A DNA stretch of 37,844 nt from a virus. A program made the position numbers and the translations under genes. The stretch lies in IMG/VR virus record IMGVR_UViG_3300006805_000069, positions 1 through 37,844 of that record. One strand, 5' to 3'. Position 1 is the stretch's first letter. The number at the start of each line of letters is the position of its first letter. Of the stretch, positions 15,564-37,844 are shown piece after piece. A model generated the notes under the pieces. It was not told the origin of the DNA and did not search any database. It was given only the letters and a program-made list of their open reading frames with translations.

Positions 15564-17678
15564 TCAATGCACTCCAGGGCCAGGGGGAAGACCAGTTTGC
15601 GGCTGGCCTAGGGGAATTCCAAGGGTATCGGACACAATGCCCTGGCTGGTCGGATGCACCGCGAGGTTTCCAGCCAGCTTGAGCTTTTCAATTAGGAGCT
15701 TCGATTCACGATCCGCCGCCTTGTCTTTCGACGTCGTGATGATCTTCATCTTTTCGGTTTCAGTCTTGGCCGCGATGATCGCCATGTTCGGATCGATCGG
15801 AGTTTCAGCCGGTGCCTGCGGAGGCGCGAAGAACTGTGCCGGGTTGTCAAAGCCCATCATCTCAAGCGCCGCGGTATCGACGGCCTTAGCATCGTACAGT
15901 TGCGGGTTTGCACCCTGCAACGTCTTAAGGCCCTGGAGCTTCATGAGACGATGCATGTGGGATGGAGTGTTGGGATCGGCGCATGGAACCAAGTCATGAT
16001 CTTCAAGCGCTTGGCGAAGTTTGGCTTCGTCCCACTGCCCCGTCAGCTTCTTGTTGTAACGCCACAGCGATTCAGGATCTTCGGAGAACAGGTCTTTGAA
16101 GAGGCGCAGTTCTTCTGACTGCGATTGATGCAGACCCTTGTGAACCGAGCCTTCGACTTTGGTTGCCTGTTCGATCAGGGCAAGCGTGGTCCCGACCGGC
16201 GCGTTCTGCTTACCTTCGCCTACGCCGACTTCAGCCGTTCCACCCACGCGTTGACCAACTTCCCGGAGCGAGGCCACGAGCTGTTGCATTGCAGGGCCAG
16301 CCTCCTTGTAAGGAAGCGCCATGATCTGATCTTGCAGCTTTTGTTGCGAGTTGCCTTGGAACGCCGCGCCGCCACCGGCAGGAACGCGGAAGTTGTTCGT
16401 CATCTGCTTACCGCCAGCGGTTTGCAAATAGATGAAGCCGGGAAAGTTCGCGAGCATCCCAGCGTCCAGCATCTCACGAATACCAGCCGTGATCGCCGTT
16501 GCCATGTTGCCGAGGATGTGGAGCAGGCCAATCCCGTAAAACCCAAAGCCTTCGATGTAGCCGTACTTTACGAAGACCTTTTTCGCGACCGGGAATTCAT
16601 CGTCTTCTTCAGACCAATTGCGCGTGATCTCAAGCACCTGCATCGATGACTTTTCGATCGTCACGCGGTAGGGGAGCGGCAAGCCTGTCGGATCGCCTTT
16701 CTTGTCCGAGTGCTCAAGCCCTTCGATGTCGAGTTCGCAATAGCACTCGTAAATCTCATAGTCGTTGTCTTCTGGCCGATCTGCATTCTCGCGAACGCCG
16801 GTCACGTCGCTCATCTTCTGGTCGACGACGCTTTTAGTTGGCGTTGGGGTGTGAAGGTCGATATTGCGGTACACCCCGAGGATTTGCATGCGCTTGAGCA
16901 CGCTCTTGCGCATGCGCAGTTGATGCGTGACGCGCGAGGCCGATGCGAGGTCAATCGCGTTGTTCGAGACGATCAGATCCTTAGCGTCGATGGCAACCGA
17001 GACCGGGCGGTTCTTGATCGGGTCGTGGTAGACTTTCTTGAACCCAGAGCCGCCGAACCCGGTCATCAACAGCATGCGCTTCGTGTCGGGATAGTAGCTG
17101 CTTTCCGTCGTGGTCAGATACGCGTTCATGTCCCGTTCAAGCGTCTCTGCTAGTTTGTCAGCATCGGTCGATTCACCACCATCGTTGCGCACCTTGACGG
17201 GACCGGCAGCAGGCAGGAGTTCAGCCGATGCGTTCGCCATGAAACGAATGCAGGCTTCCAACAAAATAGGATCGCGGACCTTTGACATGACGAGCCCGCC
17301 GCCGTCGGCCGAAACATCGGACGAAGGGCGTTCGAGCTTGAGCCCAAGCAGATCAATCCCCCGAGCGCGATCTTCAAGCCATTGAGACCGGCTTTCATCG
17401 TCCGATTGGATCGCCTGAATCAACTCCATCCCTATGCGGGAGAGTTCCATCGGATCAATCTTGTCGACGAGGTTGGAGCCGAAGTTGCCGTCTTCTTTCG
17501 CTTGGAACCGTTGCGGGTTGAAGTCGATGACCACGCCGCCGTCATCCGTCTCGATTTCAAGCGTGCCTTCGTCTGTGATCTTCGACGCCGTGATTTCGTT
17601 ATCGTTGTCGGTTTCACGTGGATCAATCACGATCACGTCTGAGGTGGGAGGCTTCTTGAACGGGAGCATTTGCGCCAT
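15564..17678 (-). CDS. Portal protein (P22-like)
   Basis: 704 residues, the size of P22-type portals. After an acidic N-terminus (about 1-75) comes VRDPILLEACIRFMANASAE (about 135-154). Then follow MLLMTGFGGSGFKKVYHDPI with the DLIVSNNAIDLASASRVTHQ segment, a long core and GYIEGFGFYGIGLLHILGNM (about 376-395). Next is a crown-like helical region (VEGSVHKGLHQSQSEELRLF), then a Pro-rich barrel end. It forms the dodecameric DNA gate at one vertex. The start overlaps the previous stop (TAATG at 17676-17680). A 14/16 match to the parS consensus lies in its 5' part at 17610-17625. Confidence 0.85.
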   Translation of the reverse strand: MAQMLPFKKPPTSDVIVIDPRETDNDNEITASKITDEGTLEIETDDGGVVIDFNPQRFQAKEDGNFGSNLVDKIDPMELSRIGMELIQAIQSDDESRSQWLEDRARGIDLLGLKLERPSSDVSADGGGLVMSKVRDPILLEACIRFMANASAELLPAAGPVKVRNDGGESTDADKLAETLERDMNAYLTTTESSYYPDTKRMLLMTGFGGSGFKKVYHDPIKNRPVSVAIDAKDLIVSNNAIDLASASRVTHQLRMRKSVLKRMQILGVYRNIDLHTPTPTKSVVDQKMSDVTGVRENADRPEDNDYEIYECYCELDIEGLEHSDKKGDPTGLPLPYRVTIEKSSMQVLEITRNWSEEDDEFPVAKKVFVKYGYIEGFGFYGIGLLHILGNMATAITAGIREMLDAGMLANFPGFIYLQTAGGKQMTNNFRVPAGGGAAFQGNSQQKLQDQIMALPYKEAGPAMQQLVASLREVGQRVGGTAEVGVGEGKQNAPVGTTLALIEQATKVEGSVHKGLHQSQSEELRLFKDLFSEDPESLWRYNKKLTGQWDEAKLRQALEDHDLVPCADPNTPSHMHRLMKLQGLKTLQGANPQLYDAKAVDTAALEMMGFDNPAQFFAPPQAPAETPIDPNMAIIAAKTETEKMKIITTSKDKAADRESKLLIEKLKLAGNLAVHPTSQGIVSDTLGIPLGQPQTGLPPGPGVH

Positions 17679-19718: not shown

Positions 19719-22685
19719 TCATACTTCATACAGCGGGTCTAGTCGTGTCGTTCCGTGCTGCGCTTGGATGGCGCGAACTTGGTCTCTTTCGTCCCGGCGA
19801 ATGGCAAACCCGACTTGACGCAAGTGCTTGAGCGCTTGCGTCGTCGAGTCCGTCAAATCCTTGAAGCGACCATTCGGGAACATCGCGGTTTCGTCAATGA
19901 CGAGCTGTGCCCAATCACGAGGAATCAACTCACTTTCCCGATCTTTCGGGTTTCGGTGGCTGACCGGAACCCCAACCATACCGTCTGCGAACAAGTGGAT
20001 CTGCGCAACGGCACGCGCGTACTTGTCGCCGCCTTTTGGATCGATGAGTTCAACGCCCCAGCCTTCGTTAGCGTACAGCCGACGCATCTCGTTGCCAACG
20101 TCGATCCCCGAGGCTTTCGCTTCGATCAGGAGCATATCGACGTGGTGACGTTTGCACTCATGCGCCACCCACTCAACTAGGCCCCACTCTTTCTTGGCGC
20201 GGGCTTTGTAATCTAGTTCGTGTTCGCCGGGCTCCCGCTCGACATCGGCGCCGTGGATCTCCAAATGCTTGCGCCAAGCGCCGAGCATCATGATCTTTGG
20301 GTTGTCCCGCTCATCAACGTAAGCGCCCCACACCGTGAAGCCTGAAGGATCGTTGCGTTCGTTCTTCGTGTAAGCAGAGTCCAACGAAGCAACCACATAC
20401 TCCATCGGCGGAGGTGGAGCCCCGATCGGCACATGGATATACTGCCACCAGTCGCGTTTAAACAACCCGCCACCACGAGGCTCAGGCGTTTGTTGATACT
20501 GACCAGCCCACATGAAGGCGTTGCGCCGGAAGCGCTGTAGAACGTTCTCCCCGTAGCGCTCAGGCCATGCCAGCTCGCCAATCTCTGTTCGAGGATCTTC
20601 CCAAATGATCTTGCGACCATTTTTGTCTCGCCCGAGGCACGTTTGGCAAACGCGGCCGTCAAATTCCATCGGAATTAAAAGGTGTACATAGTCGTCTTCG
20701 TTTTCGATGACGTGGCCAGACACATCACAGTTATGGGCAGTTATGAGGCCACATACAAAATCGTGACACGGAGTTTCAAGGTCATAAACCTTACCTGCGT
20801 ATGTTGATCTCTCGATGTTAGATATGCGAACAAAAAGCTGTTTTCCATCAGCAGACAATCTATTCGCCTTGTATCGCGGACGAACACCAGGCTCATCACA
20901 CAACCAAGGGGCAGACCAGAAGTCGAACCTAAGTTCATAGGCTTGGTTCGTTGATAATTTAACCTCACGCCCCTGTTGTGGGCCACTTGCAATTACGCAA
21001 ATCCCACCTTTGCCAGTTTGCCCTTTTAAGACGCCAGCAACAATGCCCATGCGCAGCATAGCTCTCTGAAGGCTTGAGAGCAGAGCAAGTGATACAGACC
21101 CAATACGAGCTGTGTTACCAATAGTAGACCCGTCACCGCGCCAGTATCCTATAACAAGCTCACGTAAAAATTCTGGGTCCAGCCTAACTGCCCAATCAGG
21201 CAAGCACTTATTGAGCGCCCCCGTCCCGAAATTGTTCAAAAATTTCGCAACTTGGTATGACGTGATGAAAACGTTGGCTGTGCTAAATTTACTGAAACTT
21301 AAATGAACAGGTATTCCATAGTCTGCGAACAAGTCTCTGATGTCTTGAACATAATCAAGTTCATCCTTGTGAAACGTAAGCACGATGCGACTAAGGCGTG
21401 TTCGACCTTCACCGATGCACCCCTCAGCCAACCAGTAACCCACGAAACGCCAGAACCTAGGATCAGCAAGTATTGCCTCGTCGATTGACCGGCATTTCTT
21501 TTTGGCAATCCCAAATGCTACCAAATATTGGTCAACCTGCTGGCGGTACTTCAAGCCAACAATTTCGGCTATCTCGCGGCTGCTATGGCCAGCATCCACA
21601 AGCGGCTGAAAAATCTCTTTCGAAAGATGAGTTCGGGTTCCTGTTGTTGTCCCCCTGAAAGTCGCAGGGACATCCTCGTCTTCCTTCGGCCATATAGCTT
21701 GCAACTCAGCAGTCGTTGTCTGACGCTGATCAACTGAAATTATAAGCTGATGGCTTCTCGTTAACTTTCCAGCCTCCACCCATCCATCCGATGTCAAAAT
21801 AGGATGGTTTGACGTGACACGCAAAGGCTCGCAATAACCAGATGCTCGAATACTTATTGTCTCTCCTACGTAGTCGCGGCTTGCGACAGCAACGACCTTT
21901 TGAATTCCTTGGCTGGTGACAACTGGATCACCTGCCCGAATTTCATCTGCTCTAATGATTGACATGTCGGACAGAATACCAGAGTCCGGCAATAAACACT
22001 CATTAACTCTTTGCATAATAACAATAATCGCAGACTTTTGAAGGTCGTTTAGACGGTTCGACATTGCCTCATCAAACCATCTTACAGTCTTAACGCGAAT
22101 AACGTCGCTTTCCCCATCCGCAAGGTTGTGGGGGTCGTCACATAGGACGCGATCAGCGCGCTCGCCCGTACCTACTCCGCCCACGGATGAAGCAAACTTC
22201 CACCCAGTTTTATCGTTCGACACCTTGACGACACCAACGCCCGTCGTCTTGAACTTGTCGCCCCAAAGCTCTTGGAACTTCTTCGACTGGATGATGTCTC
22301 TGAATTTGCCGTTGTCACGTTCCGTCAGATGAGAGCCATACGAAAACGCGATGTACCGCATAGAAGTGAGACCCATCGGCCCCCACTCCCAAGCAGGAAA
22401 AAAAACGTTACAGATCAACGATTTACTGAAGCCCGGCGGAACGTTGATCAGAAGGCGCGTTATGTCTCCACGAGTGACAGCTTCAAGGTGAGCGCAAATC
22501 GCCCTAATCGCCCACCCATCAACGAACTTCGTCTTAGGCTCTAAGATTGGCCAGAAGTATTTGACGAACTCGTAAAGCCCACCGGGAGCCTGTTGTTTTG
22601 CCCGGTTCTTACGGCGCAACAACTCTTTCTTGATCTCAATGCGTTTTAATAAAAGCTCGCGGCGCTTAGCCTTGAGAGACGACAC
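19719..22685 (-). CDS. terL: Terminase large subunit with intein
   Basis: 988 residues as encoded; removal of the intein (residues 230-652) leaves 565, normal for TerL. ATPase: Walker A-like NVPPGFSKS (81-89), Walker B VLCDDP (180-185), coupling motif IIVIMQRVNE (220-229). Nuclease: YVVASLDSA with D769, LLIEAKASG with E855, and FKDLTDSTTQA around 941-951. The protein pumps DNA into the prohead through the portal and cuts the concatemer. It lies next to terS and upstream of portal, as usual. Splicing is required for activity because the intein separates the ATPase motifs from the rest. Confidence 0.92.
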   Translation of the reverse strand: MSSLKAKRRELLLKRIEIKKELLRRKNRAKQQAPGGLYEFVKYFWPILEPKTKFVDGWAIRAICAHLEAVTRGDITRLLINVPPGFSKSLICNVFFPAWEWGPMGLTSMRYIAFSYGSHLTERDNGKFRDIIQSKKFQELWGDKFKTTGVGVVKVSNDKTGWKFASSVGGVGTGERADRVLCDDPHNLADGESDVIRVKTVRWFDEAMSNRLNDLQKSAIIVIMQRVNECLLPDSGILSDMSIIRADEIRAGDPVVTSQGIQKVVAVASRDYVGETISIRASGYCEPLRVTSNHPILTSDGWVEAGKLTRSHQLIISVDQRQTTTAELQAIWPKEDEDVPATFRGTTTGTRTHLSKEIFQPLVDAGHSSREIAEIVGLKYRQQVDQYLVAFGIAKKKCRSIDEAILADPRFWRFVGYWLAEGCIGEGRTRLSRIVLTFHKDELDYVQDIRDLFADYGIPVHLSFSKFSTANVFITSYQVAKFLNNFGTGALNKCLPDWAVRLDPEFLRELVIGYWRGDGSTIGNTARIGSVSLALLSSLQRAMLRMGIVAGVLKGQTGKGGICVIASGPQQGREVKLSTNQAYELRFDFWSAPWLCDEPGVRPRYKANRLSADGKQLFVRISNIERSTYAGKVYDLETPCHDFVCGLITAHNCDVSGHVIENEDDYVHLLIPMEFDGRVCQTCLGRDKNGRKIIWEDPRTEIGELAWPERYGENVLQRFRRNAFMWAGQYQQTPEPRGGGLFKRDWWQYIHVPIGAPPPPMEYVVASLDSAYTKNERNDPSGFTVWGAYVDERDNPKIMMLGAWRKHLEIHGADVEREPGEHELDYKARAKKEWGLVEWVAHECKRHHVDMLLIEAKASGIDVGNEMRRLYANEGWGVELIDPKGGDKYARAVAQIHLFADGMVGVPVSHRNPKDRESELIPRDWAQLVIDETAMFPNGRFKDLTDSTTQALKHLRQVGFAIRRDERDQVRAIQAQHGTTRLDPLYEV
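20730..21998 (-). mobile_element. Intein with LAGLIDADG homing endonuclease in TerL
   Basis: 423 codons in frame. The N-terminal residue is Cys230 (block A CLLPDSGIL). Block B is RVTSNHPIL with T291 and H294. LAGLIDADG motifs are FVGYWLAEGC (E421) and LVIGYWRGDGS (D518). Block F is KVYDLETPCHDFVCG (632-646). Block G ends His651-Asn652, followed by Cys653 as the +1 extein residue. A HTH-like stretch at 367-397 (SSREIAEIVGLKYRQQ) may aid DNA binding. All splicing and nuclease residues that I can recognise are intact. Splicing joins MQRVNE to CDVSGH, restoring a usual TerL sequence. Confidence 0.9.
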
Positions 22686-33826: not shown

Positions 33827-34096
33827 TTAGCTCTTTCTCACCTTTGCGTAACGCCGCGTTTGAGCCGTTGATCTGTTGTTGCGACGGGCGCGAAACTCTA
33901 CCCGATAGCGCTCCACATCTAACCGTTTCGCCTGCCACCCCCCGCCAGGAAGGTTTTTGCTCTTGCGCAGCACATAGAACTGCATGTCGTGGACCAACCC
34001 ACAGTCGCAGCACGCCATTCTATAGCCAATCATGATTGGCGCCACCCAATCGCTCCAACCGTTGTCGCGCTCAATCAATTTTTTTATTCGTGGCAT
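33827..34096 (-). CDS. Small basic protein with CxxC
   Basis: 89 residues. IMIGYRMACCDCGLVHDMQF, YVLRKSKNLPGGGWQAKRLD, then an Arg-rich C-terminus (YRVEFRARRNNRSTAQTRRY). Likely metal- or nucleic-acid-binding. Its upstream region is the 123-base gap containing the parS site. Confidence 0.5.
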   Translation of the reverse strand: MPRIKKLIERDNGWSDWVAPIMIGYRMACCDCGLVHDMQFYVLRKSKNLPGGGWQAKRLDVERYRVEFRARRNNRSTAQTRRYAKVRKS

Positions 34097-34200
34097 TCAT
34101 CCTCACAGCGTATACTTGCAAGGCCACCCCTTGGCAGCCACGTAAAACCACTGTCAGCACCCCTTGCCACAGCCACACAAGCCCGTGCCACCGTGAAAAA

Positions 34201-34216
34201 TGTTTCACGTGGAACA
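34201..34216. promoter_or_regulatory. parS: parS site (ParB/Spo0J binding consensus)
   Basis: TGTTTCACGTGGAACA, identical to the reverse complement of the Bacillus subtilis parS consensus TGTTCCACGTGAAACA and close to the Caulobacter site. It is the centromere sequence on which ParB loads and spreads as a CTP-dependent clamp. It sits in the intergenic region 34097-34219, three bases from the end of the gene at 34220. No parA or parB gene is visible in the window. Confidence 0.8.
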
Positions 34217-34219
34217 CAG

Positions 34220-34480
34220 TCACCCATGCCAACAAAGGCTGTCAGCCAATAGATCCGCCTCGGTACACCGTCCGCCAGGAAGCGAACCCCGTGGCAGGCT
34301 GCTCAAGACTTCGATTTGCTCGACATCGCGAAGCTCTCTCAACTTCCCGTCCGAGCACGCCCATTGATGTCGCGCGCCATACGTTCCCCAAAAGCCTTTA
34401 AGCTCAGTCCCACATACAAGTTTGATGCGGCAATGGTTGATGCGTCCAGTATCCATCAAACGCGTTGCGTACCACGTCAT
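34220..34480 (-). CDS. Small protein, unknown function
   Basis: 86 residues. MTWYATRLMDTGRINHCRIK, LVCGTELKGFWGTYGARHQW, then a segment RELRDVEQIEVLSSLPRG. Begins with an ATGA overlap and ends next to the parS site. No domain recognised. Confidence 0.45.
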   Translation of the reverse strand: MTWYATRLMDTGRINHCRIKLVCGTELKGFWGTYGARHQWACSDGKLRELRDVEQIEVLSSLPRGSLPGGRCTEADLLADSLCWHG

Positions 34481-34850: not shown

Positions 34851-35029
34851 GATCCGAGATCCTTCGCGTTCGCCAACGCGGCAAGCGCATCGCTCATTTT
34901 TCTCGATAGTTCCATGCTCAAAACAGACCGAACAACCAAGCCTTCAATCAACGGGCACGTCGCAACGAACGCATCGCCTTGATGCTCTATTTTGACGGGT
35001 AGATTGACGGTGATGGTGTTGACGGTCAT
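34847..35029 (-). CDS. HicB-like / DUF1902-like small protein
   Basis: 60 residues. ITVNLPVKIEHQGDAFVATC, PLIEGLVVRSVLSMELSRKM has the strand-turn-strand then helix layout of HicB N-terminal domains ('i.veke.dgyvA.cPelpG'). There is no DNA-binding tail and no hicA beside it, so it is not a standard toxin-antitoxin pair. Coupled by ATGA to its neighbours on both sides. Confidence 0.55.
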   Translation of the reverse strand: MTVNTITVNLPVKIEHQGDAFVATCPLIEGLVVRSVLSMELSRKMSDALAALANAKDLGS

Positions 35030-35322
35030 TCGACGTTTTCCATCTCTCGCGATGATGCATAGTCGCTAAGCGGCGTACCAGCCATACCAAGCGCATGCAG
35101 GTAGACGTCGACGATTGATTCTTCTTCTTCGCGTTCGATCTTTGATTTTTTGCGCATTCGAACGATGGTGCGTATCGCCTTGACGTCGAAGCCCAACCCC
35201 TTCGCAAATATGTACTTATCCGAAATATCGTCACAGAGAGCTTTCTTCTCGGCTTCCAAAGTTTCGATCTGTTCCACGATTTGGCGAAGTTGATCTTGAG
35301 CGCTGGCAGGGAGGATTGTCAT
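35026..35322 (-). CDS. GapR-like (DUF2312) DNA-binding protein
   Basis: 98 residues. LRQIVEQIETLEAEKKALCD, DISDKYIFAKGLGFDVKAIR, TIVRMRKKSKIEREEEESIV and DVYLHALGM match the DUF2312/GapR family almost throughout. Caulobacter GapR is a nucleoid protein that clamps overtwisted DNA ahead of replication and transcription and stimulates topoisomerases. The phage copy could take part in replication of its DNA or disturb host GapR. Coupled by ATGA to the methyltransferase gene. Confidence 0.85.
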   Translation of the reverse strand: MTILPASAQDQLRQIVEQIETLEAEKKALCDDISDKYIFAKGLGFDVKAIRTIVRMRKKSKIEREEEESIVDVYLHALGMAGTPLSDYASSREMENVE

Positions 35323-36977
35323 CGCAGTGTCTCCAAAATTGCTTGTCCGATCATTTCCGGGATTTGCGGGAGGATGGTGTTGCCGGTGGCCTTAACTCGG
35401 TCCATCCAGTCGGGTAGCCCATCATCCACTCCCGAAAGCGCGGGTTCATCCGGCCAGACCGATTGCCAGCCATCTTGACCAGCGTTTCGTTGAGCGGCCT
35501 GGAGTTCTTCGAATGCGTCTCGTCCGAGGCCATCCCGGAACGCCAATCGCGAGCCGTAGGGGTCGGCAAGGTGCCAGCGTGCGCGCTCTCGTATCCGCGC
35601 AAAACTGTCAGGAGGTCGCCGCGTCCGCCCTTGTCGGCATCCGTCGCGCGTGGTGTGGGGATCAGGCCGTTGGCCTTCCAGGCTTCGATCGATCCGTGGC
35701 TGTCCGGCAAGCCCCACTTGTTGGCTCGCAACGTCGGCAGCATTTCCGGCAGCTTGCGGTGGTGCAGCGTGTCGTTCAAGTTCGACATGCCGTGCCCCTG
35801 TGCCTTCTTGGCGGCAATGTAGTCCAGACTGTGCGGCGGGAAGTAATCGCGTGCTTGCGGTGTCGGCAGCAGATCCGGTAGACCGAAGTGCGTCAGATAC
35901 GCCCCCATGCTCCATCCGTGTTTGCCTGCAATCTGGCTTGGAGTCGCCTTGGTCTGACGGTTCTCGTTCGGACTGGCCCTTGGCGTGGGCAACAATGTAG
36001 ACCCGGTCGCGCTGGTGAGGGGCGCCGATGGCGCACGCCGGTACGCAATCCCATTCAAGATCAAACCCGCTCTCGGCCATGTCCCCGAGAACGGTTCCCA
36101 TCCCGTCTGATCGATGAGTGATCGTTGCCACGTCCGCCAAACGCCGCCCACATGATGGACAGGCTGAACATTCGGCCCCTTGGCGTTCAAAAGATGAATT
36201 TTCGCTTTGATCTGCGCTGCTTGCGCCAACGCTTCCGACGTCCAAATTCGTCCCAACTTGTTCGGGGTCATCGGCATCGTCGATACGATTTCCGACAACA
36301 AAATAAGGAGTGACGCTTGTTCCTTCTTTAGAACCAGATGTGCTCCGACTTGACGAAGTAGGCTTGCAGAGCTTGGCCCCTGCAAACTCCACTTGGTTGC
36401 TGCTTCCCAATGTGCTGTCTTCTCCCGAACCGAATGAAGGGACCCTCCAAATTGGTCCTTCAACATAGTCAACAGTTCGATTGCCTTTATCGACATCCCG
36501 ACGTCTATACGTGGAGATATGCTGCGCTTGTTCGTGGACTGCACCACAGTCAAACACCCTTCTCCATCCAATAGGCCAGCCACATAGGCATCGCTCAGCG
36601 GGCCTTGTTTCCTCTCCTCTGGATGACAGAAGTGCTGCCACGTTCTCGACGATTGCGTGGCGCGGTCGTACCACGCGAAGGGCTCGCACCAGTTCCCGGT
36701 ATAGTCCTGAACGCTCCCCGGCAAGTCCGGCGCGGCGTCCGGCGAGCGACACGTCTTGACAGGGGAAGCCTCCGACAACGACATCGGCCATTCCTTCGGT
36801 AAATTCTGCGGTCGTCACGTCGTCGAGGAGCGGCACGTGCGGCCAGTGCTTGGCCAGCACGCGCTGACAGAATTCGTTCTGTTCACAGAAAGCGACAGTT
36901 TCAAATCCCCCAGTCCTTTCAAGACCGAGGGAGAAACCACCTATGCCACTGAACAAATCAAGCACCCGCAGTTTCAT
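35319..36977 (-). CDS. C5-cytosine DNA methyltransferase with internal insertion
   Basis: 552 residues. Motif I DLFSGIGGFSLGLERTGGF (7-25), motif IV GGFPCQDVSLAG (69-80, catalytic Cys73), motif VI ENV (111-113), motif VIII GAPHQRDRVYIVA (318-330) and motif X VKATGNTILPQIPEMIGQAI (528-547) are present. Between VI and VIII about 170 residues (114-283) have no match to the family; they are the frame-0 reading of the LAGLIDADG insert. The enzyme would methylate cytosine, probably to protect phage DNA from host restriction. Whether it folds with the insert is doubtful unless the insert is removed at RNA or protein level. A second long ORF overlaps it in the +1 frame. Confidence 0.8.
   Translation of the reverse strand: MKLRVLDLFSGIGGFSLGLERTGGFETVAFCEQNEFCQRVLAKHWPHVPLLDDVTTAEFTEGMADVVVGGFPCQDVSLAGRRAGLAGERSGLYRELVRALRVVRPRHAIVENVAALLSSRGEETRPAERCLCGWPIGWRRVFDCGAVHEQAQHISTYRRRDVDKGNRTVDYVEGPIWRVPSFGSGEDSTLGSSNQVEFAGAKLCKPTSSSRSTSGSKEGTSVTPYFVVGNRIDDADDPEQVGTNLDVGSVGASSADQSENSSFERQGAECSACPSCGRRLADVATITHRSDGMGTVLGDMAESGFDLEWDCVPACAIGAPHQRDRVYIVAHAKGQSEREPSDQGDSKPDCRQTRMEHGGVSDALRSTGSAADTASTRLLPAAQSGLHCRQEGTGARHVELERHAAPPQAAGNAADVASQQVGLAGQPRIDRSLEGQRPDPHTTRDGCRQGRTRRPPDSFARIRERARWHLADPYGSRLAFRDGLGRDAFEELQAAQRNAGQDGWQSVWPDEPALSGVDDGLPDWMDRVKATGNTILPQIPEMIGQAILETLR
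35351..36784 (-). CDS. Overlapping +1-frame ORF with LAGLIDADG domain
   Basis: 477 residues, starting at 36784 with AAGGA upstream. Residues 33-50 (CEPFAWYDRATQSSRTWQ) are interrupted; then comes a LAGLIDADG-type domain (YVAGLLDGEGCL at 67-78, then SISPRIDVGMSIKAIELLTM, LKDQFGGSLHSV, LRQVGAHLVLKKEQASLLIL). WRTWQRSLI then resumes (216-224), followed by GWEPFSGTWPRAGLILNGIA and repeats of LPTPxARD (for example LPTPTARDWRSGM) and the end NPRFREWMMGYPTGWTELRP. I recognise this pattern in deposited phage proteins, often annotated as methyltransferase. Whether it is translated here is inferred from conserved features, not shown. Confidence 0.5.
   Translation of the reverse strand: MSLSEASPVKTCRSPDAAPDLPGSVQDYTGNWCEPFAWYDRATQSSRTWQHFCHPEERKQGPLSDAYVAGLLDGEGCLTVVQSTNKRSISPRIDVGMSIKAIELLTMLKDQFGGSLHSVREKTAHWEAATKWSLQGPSSASLLRQVGAHLVLKKEQASLLILLSEIVSTMPMTPNKLGRIWTSEALAQAAQIKAKIHLLNAKGPNVQPVHHVGGVWRTWQRSLIDQTGWEPFSGTWPRAGLILNGIAYRRAPSAPLTSATGSTLLPTPRASPNENRQTKATPSQIAGKHGWSMGAYLTHFGLPDLLPTPQARDYFPPHSLDYIAAKKAQGHGMSNLNDTLHHRKLPEMLPTLRANKWGLPDSHGSIEAWKANGLIPTPRATDADKGGRGDLLTVLRGYESAHAGTLPTPTARDWRSGMASDETHSKNSRPLNETLVKMAGNRSGRMNPRFREWMMGYPTGWTELRPPATPSSRKSRK
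36126..36643 (-). mobile_element. 510-bp LAGLIDADG insertion in methyltransferase gene
   Basis: The 8-bp ACGTGGCA (minus strand) occurs at 36643-36636 and again at 36133-36126, exactly 510 bases (170 codons) apart. The conserved ENVAALL of the methyltransferase reappears as ADVATIT, and RTWQ of the second frame is duplicated. Between them the second frame encodes a single-motif LAGLIDADG domain. The length keeps both frames open. No canonical intein ends or group I intron core were recognised. Confidence 0.65.

Positions 36978-37087: not shown

Positions 37088-37844
<757 letters not shown>

Follow-up and report, generated by a model that had tools for sequence, protein, structure and literature searches.

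A parS-Type Site in a Phage Record without a ParB Match

ParB is loaded at parS sites, and its occupancy extends over ~10 kb around them (PMC8367383). The locus described here raises the question of why a phage would carry an exact chromosomal parS motif next to genes of its own without any recognizable ParB to read it. The stretch analyzed, henceforth the window, corresponds to one entire IMG/VR record (37,844 bp). An exact scan of the window identified TGTTTCACGTGGAACA at positions 34201-34216, a 16/16 match to the chromosomal parS consensus as reported in the initial annotation. This 16-mer is one accepted form of parS and is one position apart from the perfect palindrome TGTTTCACGTGAAACA. 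The features referred to below are as follows.

15564-17678, minus strand: SU10-type portal protein, the clade marker (PF23899; phrog_1216)
19719-22685, minus strand: terminase large subunit with an intein (phrog_38; LAGLIDADG and intein-splicing domains)
33827-34096, minus strand: 89-aa protein of unknown function, downstream neighbor of the site, without Pfam or PHROG family
34097-34219, strand not applicable: 123-bp intergenic gap containing the site, crossed by no minus-strand ORF of at least 60 aa
34188-34213, minus strand: weak imperfect hairpin over most of the site (z -2.1)
34201-34216, plus strand: parS-type site TGTTTCACGTGGAACA, exact match, 2e-5 copies expected in the window
34220-34480, minus strand: 86-aa protein of unknown function, upstream neighbor of the site, without family
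35026-35322, minus strand: GapR-like DNA-binding protein (PF10073, E 1e-26)
35319-36977, minus strand: C5 DNA methyltransferase (PF00145, E 6e-35; phrog_363)

The clear genes flanking the site are on the minus strand, and the site follows the stop codon of ORF 34220-34480 by 3 bp and precedes the start of ORF 33827-34096 by 104 bp, in agreement with the intergenic placement originally proposed; two plus-strand ORFs cross the gap opposite to the gene direction. We detected no promoter-like site within the gap. The hairpin has no T-tract, is absent from the list of terminators and has no Rfam match, and we rejected an intrinsic terminator or a known structured RNA at this position on the basis of these absences and of its modest stability.

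Under an order-2 Markov model, 2e-5 copies of TGTTTCACGTGGAACA are expected in the window on both strands; the figure rises to 4.5e-5 when any of four parS forms is accepted and to 0.002 if one mismatch is allowed. These values bear out the claim that such a match is not expected by chance in a window of ~38 kb. The sole other near match in the window (17610-17625), which has two mismatches and lies in the portal gene, is no better than chance expectation; the window thus has one copy of the site in 37.8 kb and not several per genome as in phi29. Because a low expectation alone is not decisive in a scan of many windows, we undertook a comparison with other phages.

The record encodes small and large terminase subunits, an SU10-type portal, a major head protein, and adaptors. 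The main group of portal relatives is 52-65 kb long, and the record is therefore probably a fragment of a tailed phage of ~60 kb, covering about 60% of the genome. A tandem array with a 12-bp unit, GACCTGAGACCA, in ~10 copies occupies the very end of the record (37723-37841) and may be the place where the assembly stopped. Isolate portal relatives include phages of Caulobacter, Roseobacter, and Pelagibacter. The genes near the site also encode an ASCH-domain protein and a DUF6745 protein, and the gene for the GapR-like nucleoid protein lies 0.8 kb from the site, with homologs in three relatives (L148, L229, and L230). GapR is an alphaproteobacterial nucleoid protein, and the presence of this gene makes an alphaproteobacterial host likely; a GapR-based search for the host in genomes found nothing.

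The window contains no match to ParB_N, HTH_ParB, or AAA_31 (ParA type), so that the absence of parA and parB noted at the outset holds and a phage-plasmid with its own ParABS is not what the window presents. The initial annotation also allowed for a ParB encoded outside the window. This option is weakened by three complete relatives (57.6, 50.1, and 61.2 kb), of which two carry parS and none has ParB_N or AAA_31, and by the parS-bearing viral records that were searched whole: HTH_ParB exceeded the cut-off in none of 47, with no match at all in 46 and a single match below the cut-off in the remaining one.

Recurrence of the Site in Unrelated Phages

An exact scan found TGTTTCACGTGGAACA in at least 120 IMG/VR stretches. 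The reversed 16-mer occurs in one stretch and, because the reversed sequence might be atypical, we added a second control that keeps the same CACGTG core with rearranged flanks, which occurs in three; both controls agree. In a collection of isolate phages, searched with the 16-mer padded with N so that only exact 16-base matches count, TGTTTCACGTGGAACA is present at 213 places in 147 records and the two controls at 0 and 0, whereas the perfect palindrome occurs at 824 strand-counted places (~412 sites) in 286 records, all of these counts coming from isolate records that are redundant. The parS-bearing isolates span phages of Pseudomonas, Arthrobacter, Bacillus, Listeria, Stenotrophomonas, Lactobacillus, Enterococcus, Microbacterium, Gordonia, and Vibrio, and also include Microviridae and inoviruses. 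No phages of Escherichia, Salmonella, or Klebsiella are among the matches listed for the isolate collection; to our knowledge, these three genera have no chromosomal ParABS.

Among the 120 IMG/VR stretches listed, 28% of the sites fall outside ORFs compared with 8.9% of random positions. Those inside genes fall in unrelated proteins and in three different frames (e.g., NVSRGT, DVPRET, and MFHVKH), which rules out one conserved peptide as the cause and indicates that the DNA rather than a peptide is under selection. Several records have distinctive arrangements. Inovirus L312 (PQ006149, 5,910 bp) carries six copies of TGTTTCACGTGAAACA, most of them directly 3' of gene ends. Another stretch (L050:8906-13878) has eleven 16-mers in the same orientation within ~5 kb; the IMG/VR record concerned is 117 kb long and has no HTH_ParB, and this array could be either host DNA or a phage array. 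The direct terminal repeats contain parS in two unrelated groups, the phiPsa374-like phages of Pseudomonas and Vibrio phage phi 3.

Recurrence of the Site in the Portal Clade

The same portal type is encoded by ~19 of the 120 IMG/VR stretches listed, all of which were fetched by the 16-mer alone, and further stretches among them encode a terminase or a capsid protein. We built a portal alignment, with the window as its first row, from phages not picked for parS, which avoids circularity, and used it to fetch 80 viral loci and 80 loci from genome assemblies, the latter mostly MAG bins, for which host labels cannot be relied on; these 160 loci comprise 1.75 Mb. Ten of the 160 loci contain the core GTTYCACGTGRAAC, with 15 occurrences in total compared with about 0.01 for permuted palindromes. 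Of the 149 permuted palindromes free of overlap with parS, two have a single occurrence each and the others none, and the reversed control pattern occurs in no clade record searched. The motif is thus enriched over its controls in relatives of the window as well. Host contamination was considered as the sole cause of the IMG/VR enrichment and is excluded for this clade, where the sites lie beside portal, terminase, and capsid genes.

The parS-bearing relatives include L159 (portal identity 48%), L163 (46%, two core sites), phage HTVC027P, which has a site with one mismatch, and Alcaligenes phage QDWS535, which has an exact variant. L156 (portal identity 50%) carries five identical copies of TGTTTCACGTGAAACA with unrelated flanks within 0.9 kb (638-1565), just upstream of its terminase large subunit gene. 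The nearest relatives, MW202675 (52%) and L143 (53%), have no parS, which counts against a reading through host ParB and suggests that sites are gained and lost and that the trait is patchy. A further relative (L233, portal identity 45%) lies at 676-698 kb of an 881-kb bacterial contig of Acidisoma cellulosilyticum, and some clade members may therefore integrate as prophages. This Acidisoma genome has no exact copy of these parS forms; it consequently lends no support to the host-ParB reading, and the absence counts against it.

Because the 16-mer is enriched both in unrelated phages and in the clade of the window, the sequence comparison provides good support for a genuine parS over a chance match. 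A separate matter is whether the particular copy in the window arose by chance, from passing host DNA, or as a by-product of an RNA hairpin and has no function. We searched for relatives of both flanking ORFs and found a homolog only of the 89-aa protein (55%, in L127), in another setting and without parS; none was found for the 86-aa protein. The search thus yielded no conserved orthologous site and no relative sharing these flanks, which leaves some weight to a chance or relic origin, as do the modest hairpin directly after a stop codon and the nearest relatives that have no site. We nevertheless regard such an origin as rather unlikely given the expected count in the window, the strong enrichment across the clade, the missing T-tract for a terminator, and the absence of host genes adjoining the site.

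The phages with multiple copies, phi29 with four places, L156 with five, and the inovirus with six, bring up a different use, in which the phage would act as a decoy that pulls ParB, or SMC loading, off the host origin and so disturbs segregation or the cell cycle. Replication of phage DNA would multiply the sites. The window phage has only one, however, and ParB is abundant, so that one site per genome makes a weak sponge; the phages with the highest copy numbers, moreover, are filamentous ones, which leave the host alive. We consider a decoy function very improbable for the window.

Position of the Site Relative to the Terminase Gene

In 14 of 31 terminase-anchored clade loci, parS precedes the terminase gene by no more than 1 kb, whereas 3.3 such loci are expected; the terminase starts of two loci (L010 and L070) were roughly estimated, and neither is among these upstream matches. 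This terminase-proximal bias is significant overall (p < 5e-5) and in the ten loci that were not picked for parS (p = 0.006). In the window, parS is also upstream of the terminase large subunit gene but at a distance of 11.5 kb from its start, and the positional pattern of the clade is thus not directly applicable to it.

Two explanations draw on this bias. The first is gene control, in which host ParB would spread from the site and repress or time neighboring phage genes. In many clade members the site lies just before the terminase gene, where the late genes begin, and in the window it lies upstream of ORF 33827-34096; in P. aeruginosa, ParB represses promoters beside parS3 and parS4 (PMC5521831). 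The same source describes ParB silencing near parS as limited and as not observed in B. subtilis (PMC5521831), and the distance to the terminase gene in the window and the lack of a promoter-like site in the gap likewise argue against this explanation, which we consider unlikely. The second links the site to genome ends or packaging: parS would mark DNA close to where packaging begins or to the end that enters first, and ParB or SMC would act on it at entry or before packaging. Besides the terminase-proximal bias, the sites in the terminal repeats of the phiPsa374-like phages and Vibrio phage phi 3 are consistent with such a link. For the window, where the site is far from the terminase gene, we judge it improbable.

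A Candidate Loading Site for Host ParB

An exact motif without ParB, in varied positions and with varied flanks, is the pattern that would be expected from selection for binding of a host factor. Among the options listed in the initial annotation, use of host ParB is the best, and it stays at the level of an inference, whereas the identification of the motif as a real parS has held. We regard it as likely that the site in the window is functional and bound by host ParB, and we see an even balance for and against positioning or partition as its main benefit. The complete proposal, that the site was selected for loading of host chromosomal ParB and serves to position or partition the phage DNA, is one that we favor slightly. 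Against a host-ParB reading, the record of this phage is a lone fragment with only one site, and no relative found shares its flanks.

By analogy with chromosomal parS, host ParB would load at the site once the phage DNA is inside the cell. ParB with CTP would then close around the DNA and slide several kb to both sides, and phage DNA coated in this way might be treated like the chromosomal origin region, so that host ParA, and possibly SMC, would position it on the nucleoid. Partition of this kind could help daughter cells to receive a phage copy during a latent, slow, or episomal state; alternatively, the placement could be favorable for replication. No integrase or replication gene was recognized in the record, which counts against the proposal and makes an episomal or latent phase hypothetical.

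Comparison with Known Systems

A host-type parS carried by a phage is already known from phi29. The breadth of the phenomenon, its recurrence in the portal clade, the terminase bias, and the presence of the site in filamentous and micro-phages are undescribed in the literature searched, which included few subscription journals and no bioRxiv. Whether host parS without ParB is a widespread strategy of tailed, micro-, and filamentous phages, with several groups placing their sites near the terminase gene or genome ends and with the window as one instance, probably from a non-sporulating host, is a proposition to which we give equal weight on either side. If host ParB does load at these sites, phages would commonly target or exploit the most conserved chromosome-segregation module of bacteria; phage positioning, inheritance, or packaging would be tied to ParB, its CTP clamp, and perhaps SMC loading; and the motif would serve as a simple marker by which phages dependent on host segregation could be recognized from sequence.

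Phages P1 and N15 and the parABS-carrying actinobacteriophages resemble the proposed system in that phage DNA is partitioned via a parS-ParB complex, but they have their own ParA, ParB, and sites, and no such genes were found in the window. Genomes of alphaproteobacterial phages also contain intergenic sites for another host cell-cycle protein, CtrA (PMC9437464), which is a transcription factor and not a partition protein. A closer parallel in mechanism is SGI1, a mobile element without its own parABS that borrows a plasmid ParB in trans via parS mimics and is stabilized thereby (PMC10954446); SGI1, however, is an integrative element and not a phage, and it relies on the ParB of an IncC plasmid and on plasmid-type sites rather than on the chromosomal consensus. 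According to the account in PMC9437464 of Meijer et al. (2005), phi29 becomes entrapped in spores through host Spo0J. The host of the window phage is probably not a spore former, phi29 has at least four copies of the 16-mer compared with one in the sequenced part of the window phage, and binding is demonstrated for phi29 whereas the site in the window is a candidate from sequence. The likeness to phi29 consists in a lytic-type genome that carries a host-consensus parS without a ParB of its own, and in the very same 16-mer.
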